64,000 bases of DNA from Methylobacter tundripaludum (GTDB lineage Bacteria; Pseudomonadota; Gammaproteobacteria; Methylococcales; Methylomonadaceae). Location: NCBI RefSeq assembly GCF_002934365.1, contig NZ_PTIY01000003.1, positions 186,001-250,000 of the forward strand. The letters run 5' to 3'. This document shows positions 53-6,702 of the stretch, one piece after another (position 1 is the stretch's first letter; each line of letters begins with the position of its first letter). A program made the translations under genes and the position numbers. Under the pieces are notes generated by a model, which searched no databases, was not told the origin of the DNA, and was given only the letters and a program-made list of their open reading frames with translations.

Positions 53-1039
53 TTACCCTTCCAAACTCGCCAAGCGTGCTGCGAGAAATTCTTCTAACGA
101 CTCTAACGCCTTGGTAAATCCATCAATACCTTCTGCAAGTTTCTCAGAAGCCATACGATTTTCAGCATGCATTCTATCGAAAGTCGCCTTATCAATAGTC
201 AGTTTTTCAATTGAAGCGTTAGCCGCGTCTTTAGGATCCAGCTTACGCTCCAAATTGCCTTCGGTAGACTGAAGTTCAGCCAATAGGGATGGGGCAATAG
301 TCAATAAATCACACCCCGCTAACTCAACAATCTCGCCAATATTACGGAAGCTAGCTCCCATAACTTCGGTTTTATAGCCGAATTTTTTGTAGTAGTTATA
401 AACTTCCGTGACTGACAGGACACCTGGATCTTCAGCAGGCGCATAAGAATCCCGGCCGGTATCTTTTTTGTACCAATCCAGGATACGGCCAACAAAGGGT
501 GAAATCAGGGTAATTCCGTTCTCCGCACAAGCAATCGCTTGATGCAGGCCAAATAATAAAGTCAGGTTGGTATGAATGCCTTCCTTTTCAAGAACTGCAG
601 CAGCCTGTATACCTTCCCAAGTCGCAGCAATTTTGATTAGAACGCGTTCGCGCGAGACTCCTAAGGCTTCGTACATAGCGATCAATTCACGGCCAACACG
701 GACGCTGGCATCGGTGTCGTATGAAAGTCGAGCATCTACCTCAGTTGAAACCCGCCCTGGAATGACTTCAAGGATCTTCTTTCCAAAAGAAACGGCTAGG
801 CGTTCAAAAGCGAGGGTAGCTACTTGCGCAGCAGATGCATCTTTACCCAAAGTCTCTCTTGCACCTGTCAATGTGTCGTCGACGATTCCTTGATACTGCG
901 GCATTTGAGCAGCCGCTGTAATCAACGAAGGATTAGTTGTCGCATCGCGTGGTTTGAAAGTTTCAATAGCCTGAATATCACCAGTATCGGCTACAACCAC
1001 CGTCATTTCTCTCAATTGTTCGAGTAAAGTCTTGGCCAT
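53..1039 (-). CDS. tal: Transaldolase (TalB type)
   Basis: Transaldolase moves a dihydroxyacetone unit from sedoheptulose-7-phosphate to glyceraldehyde-3-phosphate. In a RuMP methanotroph this belongs to the rearrangement branch that regenerates ribulose-5-phosphate. The 328-residue protein has the usual TalB length. Signature 1 is DATTNPSL at residues 32-39. The Schiff-base lysine is K136 in [11 protein letters not shown]. The ATG is preceded by an AGGAG Shine-Dalgarno. It is the last of five co-directional genes after hxlA, hxlB, tkt and two repeat-protein genes. About 400 bases separate it from the repeat-protein pair, so it may have its own promoter. Assignment is secure. Confidence 0.96.
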
Positions 1040-1435: not shown

Positions 1436-2575
1436 CTACACCTTTTCCTGATTTGCTCTTGCAGCAATTATTTGTCTGACCATATATTTAGAGACACCAC
1501 TTGCAATCGGTAATACAGACTGTCTTTCCAGATATTTTGCAACCCCGCTTGCTTTAGGCATTTTTCTTGCCGCCATTGCTTCTCTTTCAACATACTTGGC
1601 AACTCGACTCACAATCGGCACCGCTTTTGCATTTCTTGCTTGGTTTGCAATGTACTTTTCAACGCTACTTAAAACAGGGACTTCTTTTCTAGATAAAATT
1701 TGTTTTGCCACATACTTTGAAACACCGCTTACCGGTGGTTTTTTATTCGCCAAAATTGCTTGCTCTTCCAAATATCTAGCCACACCAGTTGCTGCGGCAG
1801 CGGCAGCTTCCCTTTCCTTTGCTTTTTCCATCTCTTTTTCTATAGCTAACAATCGCTGTTTTTCTTTTTCTTTTTCTTGCTCTATAGCGACTATGCGCTG
1901 TTCTTCCAAGTATCTGGCGACTATTGCAGCAGCAGCAGCTTTTCTCGCCGCGATAGATTCGTCTTCCAAGTATTTAGCAACACCAGTTGCGGCTGTGCTT
2001 TTGGCAGATATAGATCGCTTAATTAAATACTTAGAAACACCGCTCATACCCGGCATTTTATCTTTATTTTCCAAATACTTAGCAACGCCGCTTGTCAAGG
2101 GCGTTTTGTTGGTAACATCCGTATGTTTAGCCATATACTTGGCAACACCGCTTATTTTCGGCGCTTTTTTTGCGAGTATAGCCTGTCTCGCCATGTACTT
2201 GGCCACAGTGCTTACAGGAAACTGTTCCAGTCTAGCCAAATATCTGGCAACACTGCTCGGGGATACAACTTCTTCCTGTGTTTCAAGATTCTGATCAACT
2301 TCATTTGCTATTGCTTCCAACACACCTCCCTGTGCTATTTCCTGACTATCTAAGTCACCAGCAACTACATTTGCTGGTGACAACTCTTCCATGTTTTTCA
2401 GATATCTAGCAACTCCGCTTAACACCGGCACAATTTCTTGGCTTTTCAAATACCTAGCAACCCCAGTAAGTCCACTAGGATCACTAATATACACGCGGGC
2501 ACTGGGCAGGGACTCATTTTTCTTTTTGTTCCCAAATAACCCAGACACTAAATCGATCAAGTAATTTTGATCCAC
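1436..2575 (-). CDS. Soluble GVxKYL-repeat protein (15 repeats), function unknown
   Basis: I do not recognise a described family. The 379-residue protein has no signal peptide or membrane segment. It consists almost entirely of a repeated motif of the form S/T-G-V-A-K/R-Y-L/M-x-x-Q. Fifteen copies begin near residues 37, 53, 107, 122, 142, 162, 178, 197, 217, 263, 283, 303, 323, 343 and 359. Many are spaced exactly 20 residues apart. Linkers are basic, alanine- or proline-containing, and a Lys/Glu-rich, probably helical stretch lies at 230-260. The start is GTG, three bases after the stop of the upstream membrane-anchored protein with the same motif, so the two are almost certainly translated together. 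Inference: a multivalent linker or scaffold using the GVxKYL motif as a docking site. Partner unknown. Confidence 0.85.
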   Translation of the reverse strand: MDQNYLIDLVSGLFGNKKKNESLPSARVYISDPSGLTGVARYLKSQEIVPVLSGVARYLKNMEELSPANVVAGDLDSQEIAQGGVLEAIANEVDQNLETQEEVVSPSSVARYLARLEQFPVSTVAKYMARQAILAKKAPKISGVAKYMAKHTDVTNKTPLTSGVAKYLENKDKMPGMSGVSKYLIKRSISAKSTAATGVAKYLEDESIAARKAAAAAIVARYLEEQRIVAIEQEKEKEKQRLLAIEKEMEKAKEREAAAAAATGVARYLEEQAILANKKPPVSGVSKYVAKQILSRKEVPVLSSVEKYIANQARNAKAVPIVSRVAKYVEREAMAARKMPKASGVAKYLERQSVLPIASGVSKYMVRQIIAARANQEKV

Positions 2576-2578
2576 TTA

Positions 2579-3265
2579 TCACCCCCGGTTGCGCATGTAC
2601 TTTTCAACTCCAGTTCCCGCTTGTTCTGCTTTTTCTTTTGCAGATGTAGCCTGCTTCTCCAGATACTTTTCAACTCCACTTACAGCCGCAGCGGCTGTTT
2701 CTTTTTCAACCACGACTTGGCTTTCCAAATATCTTGCAACGCCAGTGGCGGCAATCATATTATGCTTTCTCAAGTATCGAGCAACCCCTGAAAGCCCGCT
2801 AACATGTCCAGAATAAACTGGAGAATGGCTAACTGTAGCTTTTTTCTCGCGTTTTCCTAGGAAGATATATCCAACCACTGCAAAAACAACCAACCCCAAC
2901 AGGTAACTCATCTTGGAGTCTTGTTCGGCTTTTAACGGCGCGCTTACTGCTGTTGAATCCGCTGCTGTAGCGCGTTCGGTTATAGGCGATGTTTCCGGAA
3001 GCTGACTTGGCTTATAGCCAGCATCCTTATATAAGACTTTGGGTTCAAAGTCCGCCGCCGGATATTTTGAATCGGACTCAGCCGATGTTTCTTCCTTAAC
3101 TGCCGCCGCAGGCGCAGGCGTAGACTTGGTTTGGCTGTATGCCGGATCTTGGTAAATCACTTTTGGTTTGAAATCTGCTGCCGGATATTCCGTTTCCGCT
3201 CCTACGATAGGACTGGCTAATAACAGCGTAGCAACTAAACCATTCGTCAAATTATTTATTTTCAC
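2579..3265 (-). CDS. Membrane-anchored protein with periplasmic YPAADF repeats and cytoplasmic GVxKYL repeats
   Basis: Not a family I recognise. Residues 1-23 look like a signal peptide or signal anchor ending VGA. Two copies of a YPAADFxPKVxYxDxxY element follow at 27 and 68, then a Thr/Ala/Glu-rich linker. A membrane segment spans about 120-136, followed at once by KREKK, which predicts a cytoplasmic C-terminus. That tail carries four copies of the GVxKYL motif, beginning near 159, 174, 196 and 218, of the same kind as in the downstream 379-residue protein. The architecture suggests an inner-membrane anchor that displays motifs to the cytoplasm. It lies between tkt and the soluble repeat protein, on the same strand as the RuMP genes. 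Function is inferred only from architecture. Confidence 0.85.
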   Translation of the reverse strand: MKINNLTNGLVATLLLASPIVGAETEYPAADFKPKVIYQDPAYSQTKSTPAPAAAVKEETSAESDSKYPAADFEPKVLYKDAGYKPSQLPETSPITERATAADSTAVSAPLKAEQDSKMSYLLGLVVFAVVGYIFLGKREKKATVSHSPVYSGHVSGLSGVARYLRKHNMIAATGVARYLESQVVVEKETAAAAVSGVEKYLEKQATSAKEKAEQAGTGVEKYMRNRG

Positions 3266-3406: not shown

Positions 3407-5392
3407 TTAAAGTACCGCTTCTACGTTTTTAACAACGTTTTCAACAGTAAAGCCGAAGTGCTTCATCAATACGCCGCCCGGTGCAGATTCGCCGAAAGTA
3501 TCAATACCGACAACTGCGCCATCTAAGCCAACATATTTACGCCAAAAATCAGTAATACCTGCTTCAATCGCAACACGTTTCACCCCCGGTGTTAATATGC
3601 TGTCTTTATAAGCTTGATCTTGACGGTCAAATACATTTGTTGAAGGCATCGAAACAACACGCGCTTGAATTCCTTTTTCTGCTAAGGCTGCTTGCGATTT
3701 TATCGCTAAGTCGACTTCTGAACCGGTTGCAATCAGGATAACCTGGGCTTTACCCGCCGCTTCAGAAATGACATAAGCCCCTTTGCGGATAGCTGCGATT
3801 TGATCATCAGTACGCGCTATGAAAGGTAATCCTTGTCGACTTAACACCAAGCTTGTAGGTCCTGTCATACGTTCAACCGCCATGACCCAAGAAACGGCCG
3901 TTTCCGTGGTATCGGCAGGCCGCCAGACATCCATATTTGGAATGTAACGCATAGCAGAAGTGTTCTCAATCGGCTGATGTGTTGGACCGTCTTCGCCTTG
4001 CCCAATAGAATCATGGGTTAAAACAGCAATGGTGCGAATTTTCATTAACGCTGACATACGCAAAGCACTTTTTGCATAATCGGAGAACATGTGGAATGTT
4101 CCGCCGTAAGGTAATAAGCCACCATGTAACGCCATACCGTTCATAATAGTGTACATACCGAACTCACGCACACCGTAGGATATGTAATTACCTGGCTCTT
4201 TACCGCTGACATGTTTAAAGCTGCTGCAACTGGTTAAGTTAGAGCCTGTCAAATCCGCAGAACCACCTAAAAATTCAGGTAATGTAGGGGCTAATCCGCC
4301 GATCACTTTTTGTGAAGATTGACGCGAAGCCAGGTTTTCTGCTTTTGCGTTGGTCTCAGCAATCAATGCATCAGTCGCAGTCTTCCAATTAGCAGGCAAC
4401 TCACCAGCCATACGACGTTTGAATTCTTCTGCTAATTCTGGATACTCCGCCGCGTAGGCAGAGAATTTAGCATCCCACGCTTCCTCAGCTTTCGCACCTT
4501 TTGCTTTAGCATCCCATCCAGCATAGACATCGGCAGGAATCTCAAACGGACCATGATCCCAACCTAGAGCAGCTTTAGTCAGATTGACCTCTGCTTCGCC
4601 TAAAGCCGCACCATGACATTCATGGGTACCTGCTTTGTTTGGCGAACCAAAACCAATAGTTGTTTTGCAGCAGATCAATGAAGGCATATCAGTTACCGCT
4701 TTAGCCGTGGCAATTGCCTTATTAATCTCTTCTGGATTATGCCCATCTACTGACTGAACATGCCAGCCATACGCCTCAAAACGTTTTGCCGTATCGTCCG
4801 TATACCAGCCTTCAATATGACCATCAATAGAAATACCGTTGTCATCCCAGAAAGCGATTAGATTGCCTAAACCCCAAGTACCTGCTAATGAACAGGCCTC
4901 ATGAGAAATACCTTCCATCAAACAGCCATCACCCATGAACACATAGGTATGGTGATCAACAATTTTATGACCTGGTCGATTGAATTGGTCTGCAAGCAGT
5001 TTTTCAGCCATCGCAAAACCAACACCATTGGCAATGCCCTGTCCTAACGGACCAGTCGTTGTTTCAACACCTGGCGCATAACCGTATTCAGGGTGTCCCG
5101 CACATTTTGAATGTAGTTGACGGAAAGTGGCTAATTCACTCATGGGCAAATCATAGCCACTCAGATGCAATAACGAATAAATCAGCATTGATCCGTGACC
5201 GTTGGAAAGTACAAAACGGTCACGATCTGACCACTTTGGGTTGGACGGATTATGGCGCAGGTGATCATTCCATAAAACCTCGGCAATGTCCGCCATGCCC
5301 ATAGGTGCGCCTGGATGTCCAGAGTTTGCTTTCTGCACGGCATCCATGCTCAAAGCGCGTATGGCGTTCGCTAATTCTCGACGCGAAGTCAT
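3407..5392 (-). CDS. tkt: Transketolase
   Basis: Thiamine-diphosphate enzyme that transfers two-carbon ketol units among sugar phosphates. In this organism it works with transaldolase to regenerate ribulose-5-phosphate for formaldehyde fixation. The 661 residues match the family length. Visible landmarks are [12 protein letters not shown] at 23-34 (His26), [10 protein letters not shown] at 63-72, the ThDP/Mg motif GDG at 154-156 with Asn185, and [15 protein letters not shown] in the pyrimidine domain. The ATG has a strong AAGGAG Shine-Dalgarno. It follows hxlB after 132 bases containing a perfect hairpin and precedes the repeat-protein pair by 141 bases. Confidence 0.97.
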
Positions 5393-5524: not shown

Positions 5525-6058
5525 CTATTCTAAATTAGCGTGCCTTTCTCTCATGATTTCTTCTGGAATTCCCTTTTCATGGATAATATGAGAAATGGTT
5601 GCTTCCAAGAAAAACAAGGTAGATAGTTCAAACACAGTCCCCATAGGCATTCCTAACACCTTACCATACTGCTCCGCGTTACCGATTTGAAATACCGCAT
5701 CTGCCAAGTCGCCAATGGTCGAACTGTTTTTTGCAGATATTAAGACTATCTTAGCACCTATTTTTTTTGCACTTTTAGTGAATGCTATTAGTTGCTCAGT
5801 CTCTCCAGAACCGGAAATAATGATCAACAAGTCACCGTTTTTAATGCTAGGCGTGACAATTTCACCGACGACGCTGACATCGTAACCGCCATGAACCAGT
5901 CTCATTGCAAAGAAATTTCCAACAAGCTTGGAACGCCCAGCACCTGCGATAAATATGCGCTTGGCGCTATCGAGCAATTGGGTCAACTTTACATCATAGG
6001 TATCATCTGTAGCTTCAAGAACACCTGAAATCTTTTCTATGATAAGTTGCTGATGCAT
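5525..6058 (-). CDS. hxlB: 6-phospho-3-hexuloisomerase
   Basis: Isomerises hexulose-6-phosphate to fructose-6-phosphate, the second RuMP reaction. The 177-residue protein is one SIS domain of the usual PHI length: GAGRSKLVG near 39-47, an ISGSGET phosphosugar-binding loop at 81-87, and the family-typical C-terminal RHANLE. It begins two bases after the hxlA stop and is surely cotranscribed with it. Together the two genes convert formaldehyde plus ribulose-5-phosphate to fructose-6-phosphate, the strongest evidence for a RuMP methylotroph. Other SIS-domain isomerases are excluded by the neighbour and length. Confidence 0.95.
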   Translation of the reverse strand: MHQQLIIEKISGVLEATDDTYDVKLTQLLDSAKRIFIAGAGRSKLVGNFFAMRLVHGGYDVSVVGEIVTPSIKNGDLLIIISGSGETEQLIAFTKSAKKIGAKIVLISAKNSSTIGDLADAVFQIGNAEQYGKVLGMPMGTVFELSTLFFLEATISHIIHEKGIPEEIMRERHANLE

Positions 6059-6060
6059 AA

Positions 6061-6702
6061 TTATACCGCGTCAACCAATTCGCGAATTTCACGCGCTGCA
6101 TCAGCAGGTGAAGCCGCGCCATAGATTGCAGCGCCAACAACGATGATGTTTGCGCCTGCGCGAACTACATCTTGTACAGTTGACGGTTTAATACCACCGG
6201 CAACAGAAATTCTGACGTTTAAGCCTAATCTTGCGATGTCGTTCAAATCAGCGAAAGGCGTATGACCTGCTGCTTGCGCGTCCAGACCTGTGTGAATACC
6301 CATGATATGAGCACCCATTTCAGCAGTTGCGCGTGCACACGCCACTTTATCTTCAACATTAATTAAATCGATTTGGGCTTCTGCACCGTATGCATTTGCT
6401 GCTTTGATAACGCCTGCACAAGTTGCAAGGCCGGATACGCCTAGAACTGTACAAATATCAGCACCTGCTGCATAGAAAGGTGTTGCTTCGTATTCGCCTG
6501 CGTCCATAGTTTTAAGGTCAACCAAAAGCAGTTTCTCTGGGAATCTTGCTCTTAATTCTTTAACCAGGTTAAGGCCGTTATATTTAATGCATGGAGTTCC
6601 GATTTCAAAGATATCAACGTAAGGAGCTACTAAGGTAGCAAGGCCTACTGTTTGATCGAAATCTAATGAATCTAATGCCATTTGTATTAATGGTTTTGCC
6701 AT
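6061..6702 (-). CDS. hxlA: 3-hexulose-6-phosphate synthase
   Basis: Catalyses Mg-dependent aldol condensation of formaldehyde with ribulose-5-phosphate, the entry of C1 carbon into biomass. The 213-residue protein belongs to the orotidine-5'-phosphate decarboxylase superfamily and shows the metal/catalytic motif DLKTMD at 62-67. Phosphate-binding residues lie in the SVAGGIKPS and NIIVVGAAI strands near the C-terminus. A GGAG lies upstream of the ATG. It is the first gene of the minus-strand RuMP cluster, so the main promoter should lie in the intergenic region above 6702. Confidence 0.96.
   Translation of the reverse strand: MAKPLIQMALDSLDFDQTVGLATLVAPYVDIFEIGTPCIKYNGLNLVKELRARFPEKLLLVDLKTMDAGEYEATPFYAAGADICTVLGVSGLATCAGVIKAANAYGAEAQIDLINVEDKVACARATAEMGAHIMGIHTGLDAQAAGHTPFADLNDIARLGLNVRISVAGGIKPSTVQDVVRAGANIIVVGAAIYGAASPADAAREIRELVDAV

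Follow-up and report, generated by a model that had tools for sequence, protein, structure and literature searches.

Gene Organization at the Locus

The window analyzed here, a stretch of 64,000 nucleotides from Methylobacter tundripaludum, begins with six co-directional genes on the minus strand, whose order in the direction of transcription is hxlA, hxlB, tkt, anchor, linker, and tal. Four of these encode ribulose monophosphate (RuMP) enzymes, i.e., 3-hexulose-6-phosphate synthase HxlA (6061..6702; 213 aa; Pfam OMPdecase/HUMPS PF00215, E 9.1e-40), 6-phospho-3-hexuloisomerase HxlB (5525..6058; 177 aa; SIS domain PF01380, E 2e-17), transketolase Tkt (3407..5392; 661 aa; PF00456/PF02779/PF22613), and transaldolase Tal (53..1039; 328 aa; PF00923, E 5.4e-88). 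The two genes between tkt and tal both have a GTG start and encode a predicted membrane protein of 228 aa (2579..3265), hereafter called the anchor, and a repeat protein of 379 aa with 15 GVxKYL motifs (1436..2575), hereafter called the linker; the anchor stop and the linker start are separated by 3 bases (2576-2578). On the minus strand, a consensus scan placed one promoter-like site at 6798-6769, upstream of hxlA, and found no terminator-like site from tkt to tal. As promoter-like sites were no more common in the region than in shuffles (8 observed vs. 12.5), the scan weakly supports a single operon. In most relatives that we read, hxlA is likewise clustered with the motif genes.

Architecture of the Anchor and the Linker

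The anchor starts with a signal-like N terminus, followed by two YPAADF segments, one predicted membrane helix, and four GVxKYL motifs. The first YPAADFKPKVIYQD segment (residues 27-40; 3146..3187, minus strand) contains the residues Y27, P28, and P34, which are invariant in the alignment, and the second YPAADFEPKVLYKD segment (residues 68-81; 3023..3064, minus strand) falls in conserved alignment columns. AlphaFold2 predicts the membrane helix at residues 115-137 (2855..2923, minus strand), with block pLDDT values of 53, 85, and 73 across residues 111-140, and a motif scan places the four motifs at residues 159-226 (2588..2791, minus strand), with V-x-[KR]-Y-[LMVI] cores at residues 161, 176, 198, and 220. 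The anchor model as a whole is of low confidence (mean pLDDT 56, pTM 0.17). Judging from the signal-like N terminus, the YPAADF half would be periplasmic and the GVxKYL tail cytoplasmic. YPAADF arms are common in Methylococcales and also occur as free-standing, secreted-type proteins of 80-108 aa (L065, L067, L070). As the arms exist alone, they probably serve a second contact with another partner. Conversely, some Methylococcales, notably family f6, have YPAADF proteins with a TM helix and without the GVxKYL tail.

The linker carries 15 motif cores between residues 39 and 361, with spacings of 16, 54, 15, 20, 20, 16, 19, 20, 46, 20, 20, 20, 20, and 16 residues, i.e., exactly 20 in 7 of 14 cases. 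According to sequence and AlphaFold2 model, it starts with a short hydrophobic/amphipathic helix (residues 4-14; 2534..2566, minus strand). The motif scan and the model then define an array of 15 motif helices (residues 37-378; 1442..2467, minus strand) and a long charged central helix (residues 198-261; 1793..1984, minus strand; block pLDDT 86-97 for residues 201-260). In this low-confidence model (mean pLDDT 62, pTM 0.27), the motifs form separate short helices like beads on a string, without a global fold. The preliminary description of this DNA had reported the same anatomy of the anchor, the short gap, the fifteen repeats with many 20-residue periods, and the co-directional position of both genes between tkt and tal, all of which were borne out. 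It had also called the linker soluble, which is correct only in part because of the hydrophobic or amphipathic N-terminal segment; in two relatives (L047 and L157), this segment resembles a membrane helix.

The Motif Is Nonrandom and under Purifying Selection

When each protein was shuffled 10,000 times, the mean motif count dropped to 0.068 for the linker and 0.030 for the anchor, with a maximum of 2 in both cases. The repeats have no counterpart in a tandem array at the DNA level, as Tandem Repeats Finder (score 40) reported only a TTTTTC run. Comparison with eight same-genus orthologues by the NG86 method gave dN values of 0.16-0.27 and dS values of 0.66-1.51, and the resulting dN/dS of about 0.18-0.25 demonstrates purifying selection. 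Conservation is locked to the motif phase, with identities of 0.97 for V, 0.98 for Y, 0.95 for S/T at position -2, and 0.84 for K/R, as compared to 0.44-0.82 for the remaining positions. From 338 repeats of loci L031-L070, we derived the unit consensus [ST]-G-V-[ASE]-[KR]-Y-[LVM]-x-[KR]-Q, in which V, Y, and [KR] were preset by the search and the two residues before V loosely preset. The most common spacing among these repeats was 20 (111 times), followed by 15 (46 times). Among relatives, the number of repeats varies from 2 to 20, the maximum being reached in a single chain of L211/L047. In the source genome, the motif profile matches only the anchor and the linker, besides a 37-aa ORF at E 1.07.

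Linkage to RuMP Genes in Methylococcales

The anchor was matched at E ≤ 0.001 in 50 of 61 genomes (source included), in some of them through the YPAADF part alone. Within a larger sample of the order (n = 201), an anchor-like protein was found in 169 genomes and hxlA in 171; the two coincide in 164 genomes, with hxlA alone in 7, the anchor alone in 5, and neither in 25. These counts overstate the occurrence of the motif because "anchor-like" includes the YPAADF-TM proteins without GVxKYL, notably those of f6. The same gene order, hxlA-hxlB-tkt-[anchor]-[linker]-tal(-fba), is seen again in family f1 as well as in f3, f5, and f6 loci, sometimes without one of the two repeat genes, and the f6 instance may be a contamination because G052 (f6) and G038 (f3) apparently share the same contig. 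Loci L031-L064, which were chosen by the anchor search, contain 52 repeat ORFs. The great majority (47) lie within 1 kb of a same-strand tkt or tal, two have a more distant same-strand RuMP gene, and three (L046, L062, and L063) lie in loci devoid of RuMP genes, one of which (L046) is cut by a contig end. Other arrangements include several Methylococcaceae-type loci in which the anchor precedes hxlA (L240, L242-L245) and the chromosome of M. buryatense 5G, where hxlA-hxlB-tkt-linker is present in tandem copies and the linker has been co-amplified.

Fetching loci by hxlB instead yielded 35 Methylococcales loci, 23 of which contain a repeat ORF. The 12 loci without one comprise six that are cut by contig ends downstream of hxlB or within/after tkt, five with fused HPS-PHI ORFs of 391-402 aa (three of them short loci), and a single true lack (L241); a motif gene was thus found at none of the five fused loci, three of which are short. 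The motif profile, which is insensitive, matched in none of 15 f6 and f4 genomes (g24, g307, g311) that have hxlA. Most hxlA loci of motif-lacking Methylococcales (14 of 16, several of them short) show hxlA, alone or with hxlB, and neither tal nor a close tkt. The other arrangement is represented by L303 (g311), which combines tkt, tal, and hxlA-hxlB in one locus, and by L294, where tal and fba lie beside hxlA. As both cluster RuMP genes without the motif, a clustered pathway does not require it.

In a sample of the class (n = 369), hxlA was present in 6 genomes and motif matches (E ≤ 0.01) in 8, with 5 genomes common to both (Fisher p 6e-9, phylogeny ignored); the sixth hxlA genome, G062, proved on reading to encode a 7-motif protein. 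In a sample of the phylum (n = 398), the source genome alone matched at E ≤ 0.001, which is strict for so short a profile. The RuMP enzymes themselves do not carry the motif: at the fetched loci (overlaps counted), it is encoded by none of 189 hxlA, 121 hxlB, 57 tkt, and 102 tal ORFs. Comparing the enzymes of motif-bearing and motif-lacking groups, we identified four sites in HxlA and three in HxlB that are conserved in the former and not in the latter, which gives no clear signal of a binding-surface signature in these two enzymes; for Tal and Tkt, the comparison comprised two and one motif-lacking sequences, respectively.

A Small Repeat Protein in Methylophagaceae

Methylophagaceae (family f10) usually have the cluster hxlA - small repeat protein - tal - hxlA - hxlB - LeuC-like (aconitase-family) gene, in which tkt and fba were not found. 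The repeat protein has 59-204 aa, lacks the YPAADF half, and adjoins hxlA, hxlB, or tal; the smallest members carry two motifs in 59-65 aa (L176 and L177, the latter with 59 residues). Among 43 loci fetched by hxlB, 39 contain a repeat ORF, all within 1 kb of a same-strand RuMP gene and 36 with tal as the nearest one, and the remaining four are cut upstream by contig ends. Likewise, all 14 loci chosen by short-ORF motif matches (L151-L164), a selection that left out ORFs of ChpA size, contain RuMP genes. The anchor profile matched in 50 of 56 genomes (35 of 36 high-quality ones). Among the matches listed, all start at profile position 135 or later, i.e., in the GVxKYL tail, and the YPAADF half was not found in the 56 genomes. 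The 19-residue motif profile reached E ≤ 0.05 in only 25 of 57 genomes and is therefore insensitive. The N terminus of the Methylophagaceae repeat protein is amphipathic and GFFASICGFFKGLFSS-like, and its counterpart in Methylococcales varies. Most of the Methylophagaceae members listed have a Cys within this N-terminal helix. The Methylococcales members listed have none in their helix segments; in a few of them, one lies upstream of the likely start. One additional bin outside the 56 (G589; 77% complete, 5% contaminated) has an anchor, a linker, and tal of the Methylococcales type on a 3-kb contig, which is probably a contamination.

Motif Carriers away from RuMP Genes

Among the matches listed, the anchor profile also hit an ORF of 1330-2065 aa in 22 Methylophagaceae genomes, and such long ORFs carry one to five clear motifs in all 12 loci examined (four in L123). 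The long ORF of G610 (L310) is a ChpA-like kinase, as shown by its Hpt, CheW, HATPase, and receiver domains and by the CheW, MCP, and receiver genes next to it; the remaining ones are read as ChpA-like by size and position. Further carriers are a Sel1-repeat protein with a TM helix and one GVxRYL tail motif in G535 and G550, and orphan linkers with a Cys/His C-terminal domain and no RuMP neighbors in three f1/f5 genomes (L062, L063, L309). Single matches in three genomes without hxlA (G187, G203, G264) were located by reading in OmpA-like C-terminal regions and were set aside as RuMP-type members.

As the motif occurs in the ChpA-like, Sel1-TM, and orphan Cys/His proteins, its partner may be broader than RuMP. 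These carriers suggest either that the role of the motif is not exclusive to RuMP or that other proteins dock on a RuMP assembly. Scattered homologues without a RuMP link, which the preliminary description had named as evidence against its proposal, were found to this extent, next to an otherwise strong RuMP linkage.

A Putative Membrane-Tethered Linker System for RuMP Enzymes

Methane and methanol metabolism branch at formaldehyde, which is toxic, and the means by which its leakage is prevented are an open question. It derives from periplasmic methanol oxidation and enters at the cytoplasmic membrane. Selection acts on the motif, and the two-part anatomy comes with a tight and widespread gene linkage: the link to RuMP that was initially proposed is strongly supported by the conserved order hxlAB-tkt-anchor-linker-tal in Methylococcales and hxlA-repeat gene-tal-hxlA-hxlB in Methylophagaceae. 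We consider a functional tie of the pair to RuMP very likely, and it is nearly as likely that GVxKYL is a binding module. Judging from gene linkage, its partner is probably, though by no means surely, a RuMP enzyme.

On this basis, we lean slightly towards a multivalent, membrane-tethered system of linker and anchor for RuMP enzymes, EPYC1-like in its logic. The [ST]GVxKYL units would act as stickers, i.e., as short helices through which a flexible chain binds its partners, and the many stickers of the linker, together with the few on the anchor tail, would bind one or more of the adjacently encoded enzymes. These enzymes are themselves oligomers. Sticker binding could cross-link them, and the resulting metabolon or condensate would be attached to the cytoplasmic membrane from the inside, at the site of formaldehyde entry, where formaldehyde would be channelled or sequestered. 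Candidate partners are HxlA as the foremost and HxlB and Tal as alternatives. HxlA is favored since nearly all arrangements include it, with linker or anchor near hxlA or tal, whereas neither tkt nor fba was found in the clusters of Methylophagaceae; as the specific partner, it is nevertheless a tentative choice. That the assembly is phase-separated rather than a discrete complex is less likely than not. Viewed more broadly, the GVxKYL code of Methylococcales and Methylophagaceae could define a so far undescribed class of membrane-tethered scaffolds for the fixation of formaldehyde that build a pyrenoid-like RuMP assembly at the membrane, on which other carriers (ChpA in Methylophagaceae) dock and sense or follow C1 flux, a possibility that we regard as speculative. 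If the favored reading is true, a dedicated and widely conserved pair of linker and anchor would provide a concrete physical basis for formaldehyde channelling, comparable to the Rubisco linkers, and could serve as a building block when synthetic methylotrophy is engineered.

Several other explanations were weighed. The motif might serve as a general localization module, gathering RuMP enzymes, ChpA, and others by binding either itself or a hub outside RuMP (a membrane or polar factor). The carriers away from RuMP genes fit this idea, but in the source genome the motif is confined to the RuMP pair, in the phylum sample this genome alone matches at the strict threshold, and no motif was found in the four RuMP enzymes encoded at the fetched loci, so that the RuMP enzymes could join such a hub only if they were bound themselves; we consider this rather unlikely. 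Somewhat less probable still is a regulator in the manner of CP12, the small disordered Calvin-cycle linker that joins metabolic enzymes. In this reading, a small disordered protein with several motifs would bind HxlA or Tal and, depending on formaldehyde or redox state, reversibly lower or raise the activity of the enzyme without building an assembly. Gene linkage would be identical for regulator and scaffold, and a regulator would be compatible with the minimal two-motif members and with the helix Cys found in most of the Methylophagaceae members listed. Such a Cys is absent from the helix of the Methylococcales members listed, however, and chains with up to 20 motifs together with a motif-bearing membrane anchor favor multivalent tethering; many tandem motifs and a membrane anchor also set the present pair apart from CP12.

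An organizer of intracytoplasmic membranes, as suggested in the preliminary description, or of particulate methane monooxygenase in methanotrophs could explain why YPAADF arms, in an anchor search covering Methylococcales and Methylophagaceae, are common in the former and not seen among the matches listed in the 56 genomes of the latter, and why some Methylococcales retain YPAADF-TM proteins that lack the GVxKYL tail. Methylophaga is not known to have intracytoplasmic membranes. A membrane-organizing role is disfavored because the repeat protein is kept beside RuMP genes in the methylotrophic Methylophagaceae, where pmoA (PF02461) is present in 1 of 56 genomes and absent from 55; we judge it improbable for the pair, and the YPAADF half alone may have such a role. 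The variable repeat number among relatives would also be expected of a nonfunctional low-complexity filler or a product of replication slippage, but the lack of a tandem repeat at the DNA level, the low dN/dS, the phase-locked conservation, and the retention of the repeat gene beside the same genes in two bacterial groups make this explanation hardly credible.

Comparison with Known Families and Linker Proteins

Neither curated families (Pfam/NCBIfam) nor solved structures contain a credible relative of the anchor or the linker. For the anchor, no Pfam family exceeded its cut-off and NCBIfam gave no match, and among 15 anchors, three families match one or two members each, weakly. The sole Pfam match of the linker above a cut-off is U1snRNP70_N (24.5 bits vs. 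a cut-off of 23), which has no stretch passing alone and was read as a low-complexity artefact. One relative matched DPC2, "Diatom pyrenoid component 2", by chance (E 0.0049; 17.7 bits vs. a cut-off of 70; no passing stretch), and the best phmmer match to PDB chains was an acyl-CoA oxidase at E 0.53. Pfam includes CsoS2 and CP12 profiles; both families are absent from the Pfam matches at E ≤ 1 (for CsoS2, those of both proteins), and NCBIfam lists no family in the case of CsoS2. The surroundings also differ from a carboxysome operon with Rubisco and shell genes, the neighbors being hxlA, hxlB, tkt, and tal. Over any real stretch, neither protein matches a Pfam or NCBIfam family above the cut-off. 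In the open-access literature, to which the search was confined, apparently no paper describes the motif proteins or a RuMP metabolon or condensate; passages of PMC5802761, PMC6548844, and PMC8788690 mention neither anchor nor linker.

Although the proteins match no curated family, their working principle would parallel that of known linkers, a parallel in function, as no homology was found. The fused HPS-PHI ORFs represent another physical coupling of HxlA and HxlB, which in contrast is covalent and occurs at the five loci without a motif gene. EPYC1 belongs to the green algal pyrenoid, and its Rubisco motif differs from GVxKYL and recurs with a period of about 60, as opposed to about 20 here, where the host is bacterial and RuMP genes take the place of Rubisco. 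Shared features are the tandem short helical motifs on a chain without a global fold (15 in the low-confidence linker model) and the presence of the same motif on a membrane tether (four after the predicted TM helix of the anchor, with topology inferred). In the EPYC1 system, short helical motifs gather Rubisco, and the same motif is found on membrane-associated proteins. Papers on EPYC1 and other proteins with Rubisco-binding motifs include PMC10473226 and PMC11649565. CsoS2 of the alpha-carboxysome is a bacterial disordered repeat protein that bridges the carbon-fixing enzyme to a boundary (PMC11365436, PMC11481516), which the linker would parallel with a predicted membrane helix as the tether. 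The diatom pyrenoid linker PYCO1 phase-separates with its enzyme (PMC10288592); it is likewise a repeat protein with sticker motifs, albeit from another organism and with another enzyme.

Other Proteins with GVxKYL-Type Motifs or YPAADF Segments

A Sel1-repeat protein, encoded at fetched loci L312:977-1711 and L317:7205-7615 (Sel1 by Pfam for L312), combines a membrane helix with a short tail that carries a single GVxRYL motif. This protein is a membrane anchor of a second kind, unrelated to the first. YPAADF segments, two or three per protein, were identified in small secreted-type proteins, both in the M. tundripaludum genome itself (L065:9168-9410, G000:C6) and at loci L066, L067, and L070. 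The gene at L065 immediately follows an ABC transporter whose binding protein is of the NMT1 type. The GVxKYL tail was absent from the YPAADF proteins with a transmembrane helix in genomes of family f6 (L058, minus strand, 216 aa; L061:9317-10054); these proteins are encoded close to mutS and to a gene for a zinc-binding chemoreceptor.

Orphan linkers (L062:2734-3519, L063:9442-10272, and L309:8978-9874) comprise four to six GVxKYL motifs and a Cys/His-rich C-terminal domain. Two of the three were scanned, revealing nothing above a cut-off in Pfam and no match in NCBIfam. All three genes are distant from RuMP genes.

Methylophagaceae and Binning

GVERYL/TSVERYI motifs were found in long ORFs, one to five per ORF, at 12 of 12 Methylophagaceae loci examined (L092, L111, L113, L115-L118, L120, L123, L125, L126, and L129). 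ChpA-like domains were confirmed in one such ORF (L310, the same gene as L111). One Methylophagaceae genome contained a strong pmoA match (G592:C103:1429-2142; E 1.7e-134), which may reflect either a methane oxidiser or contamination. Binning contamination is probable for L052, L053, and L157: L157 (G589:C210) is a Methylococcales-type anchor contig inside a Methylophagaceae bin, and L052 (G052:C1) and L053 (G038:C285) are apparently one RuMP contig common to genomes of different families.

Duplicated Loci

Methylotuvimicrobium buryatense 5G harbors tandem copies of an hxlA-hxlB-tkt-linker unit (L220, L222), with linkers of the same length (458 aa). Two copies of the anchor region were also identified in the Methylococcaceae-type genome G039 (L093, L099), in each of which the motif array is split across two reading frames.
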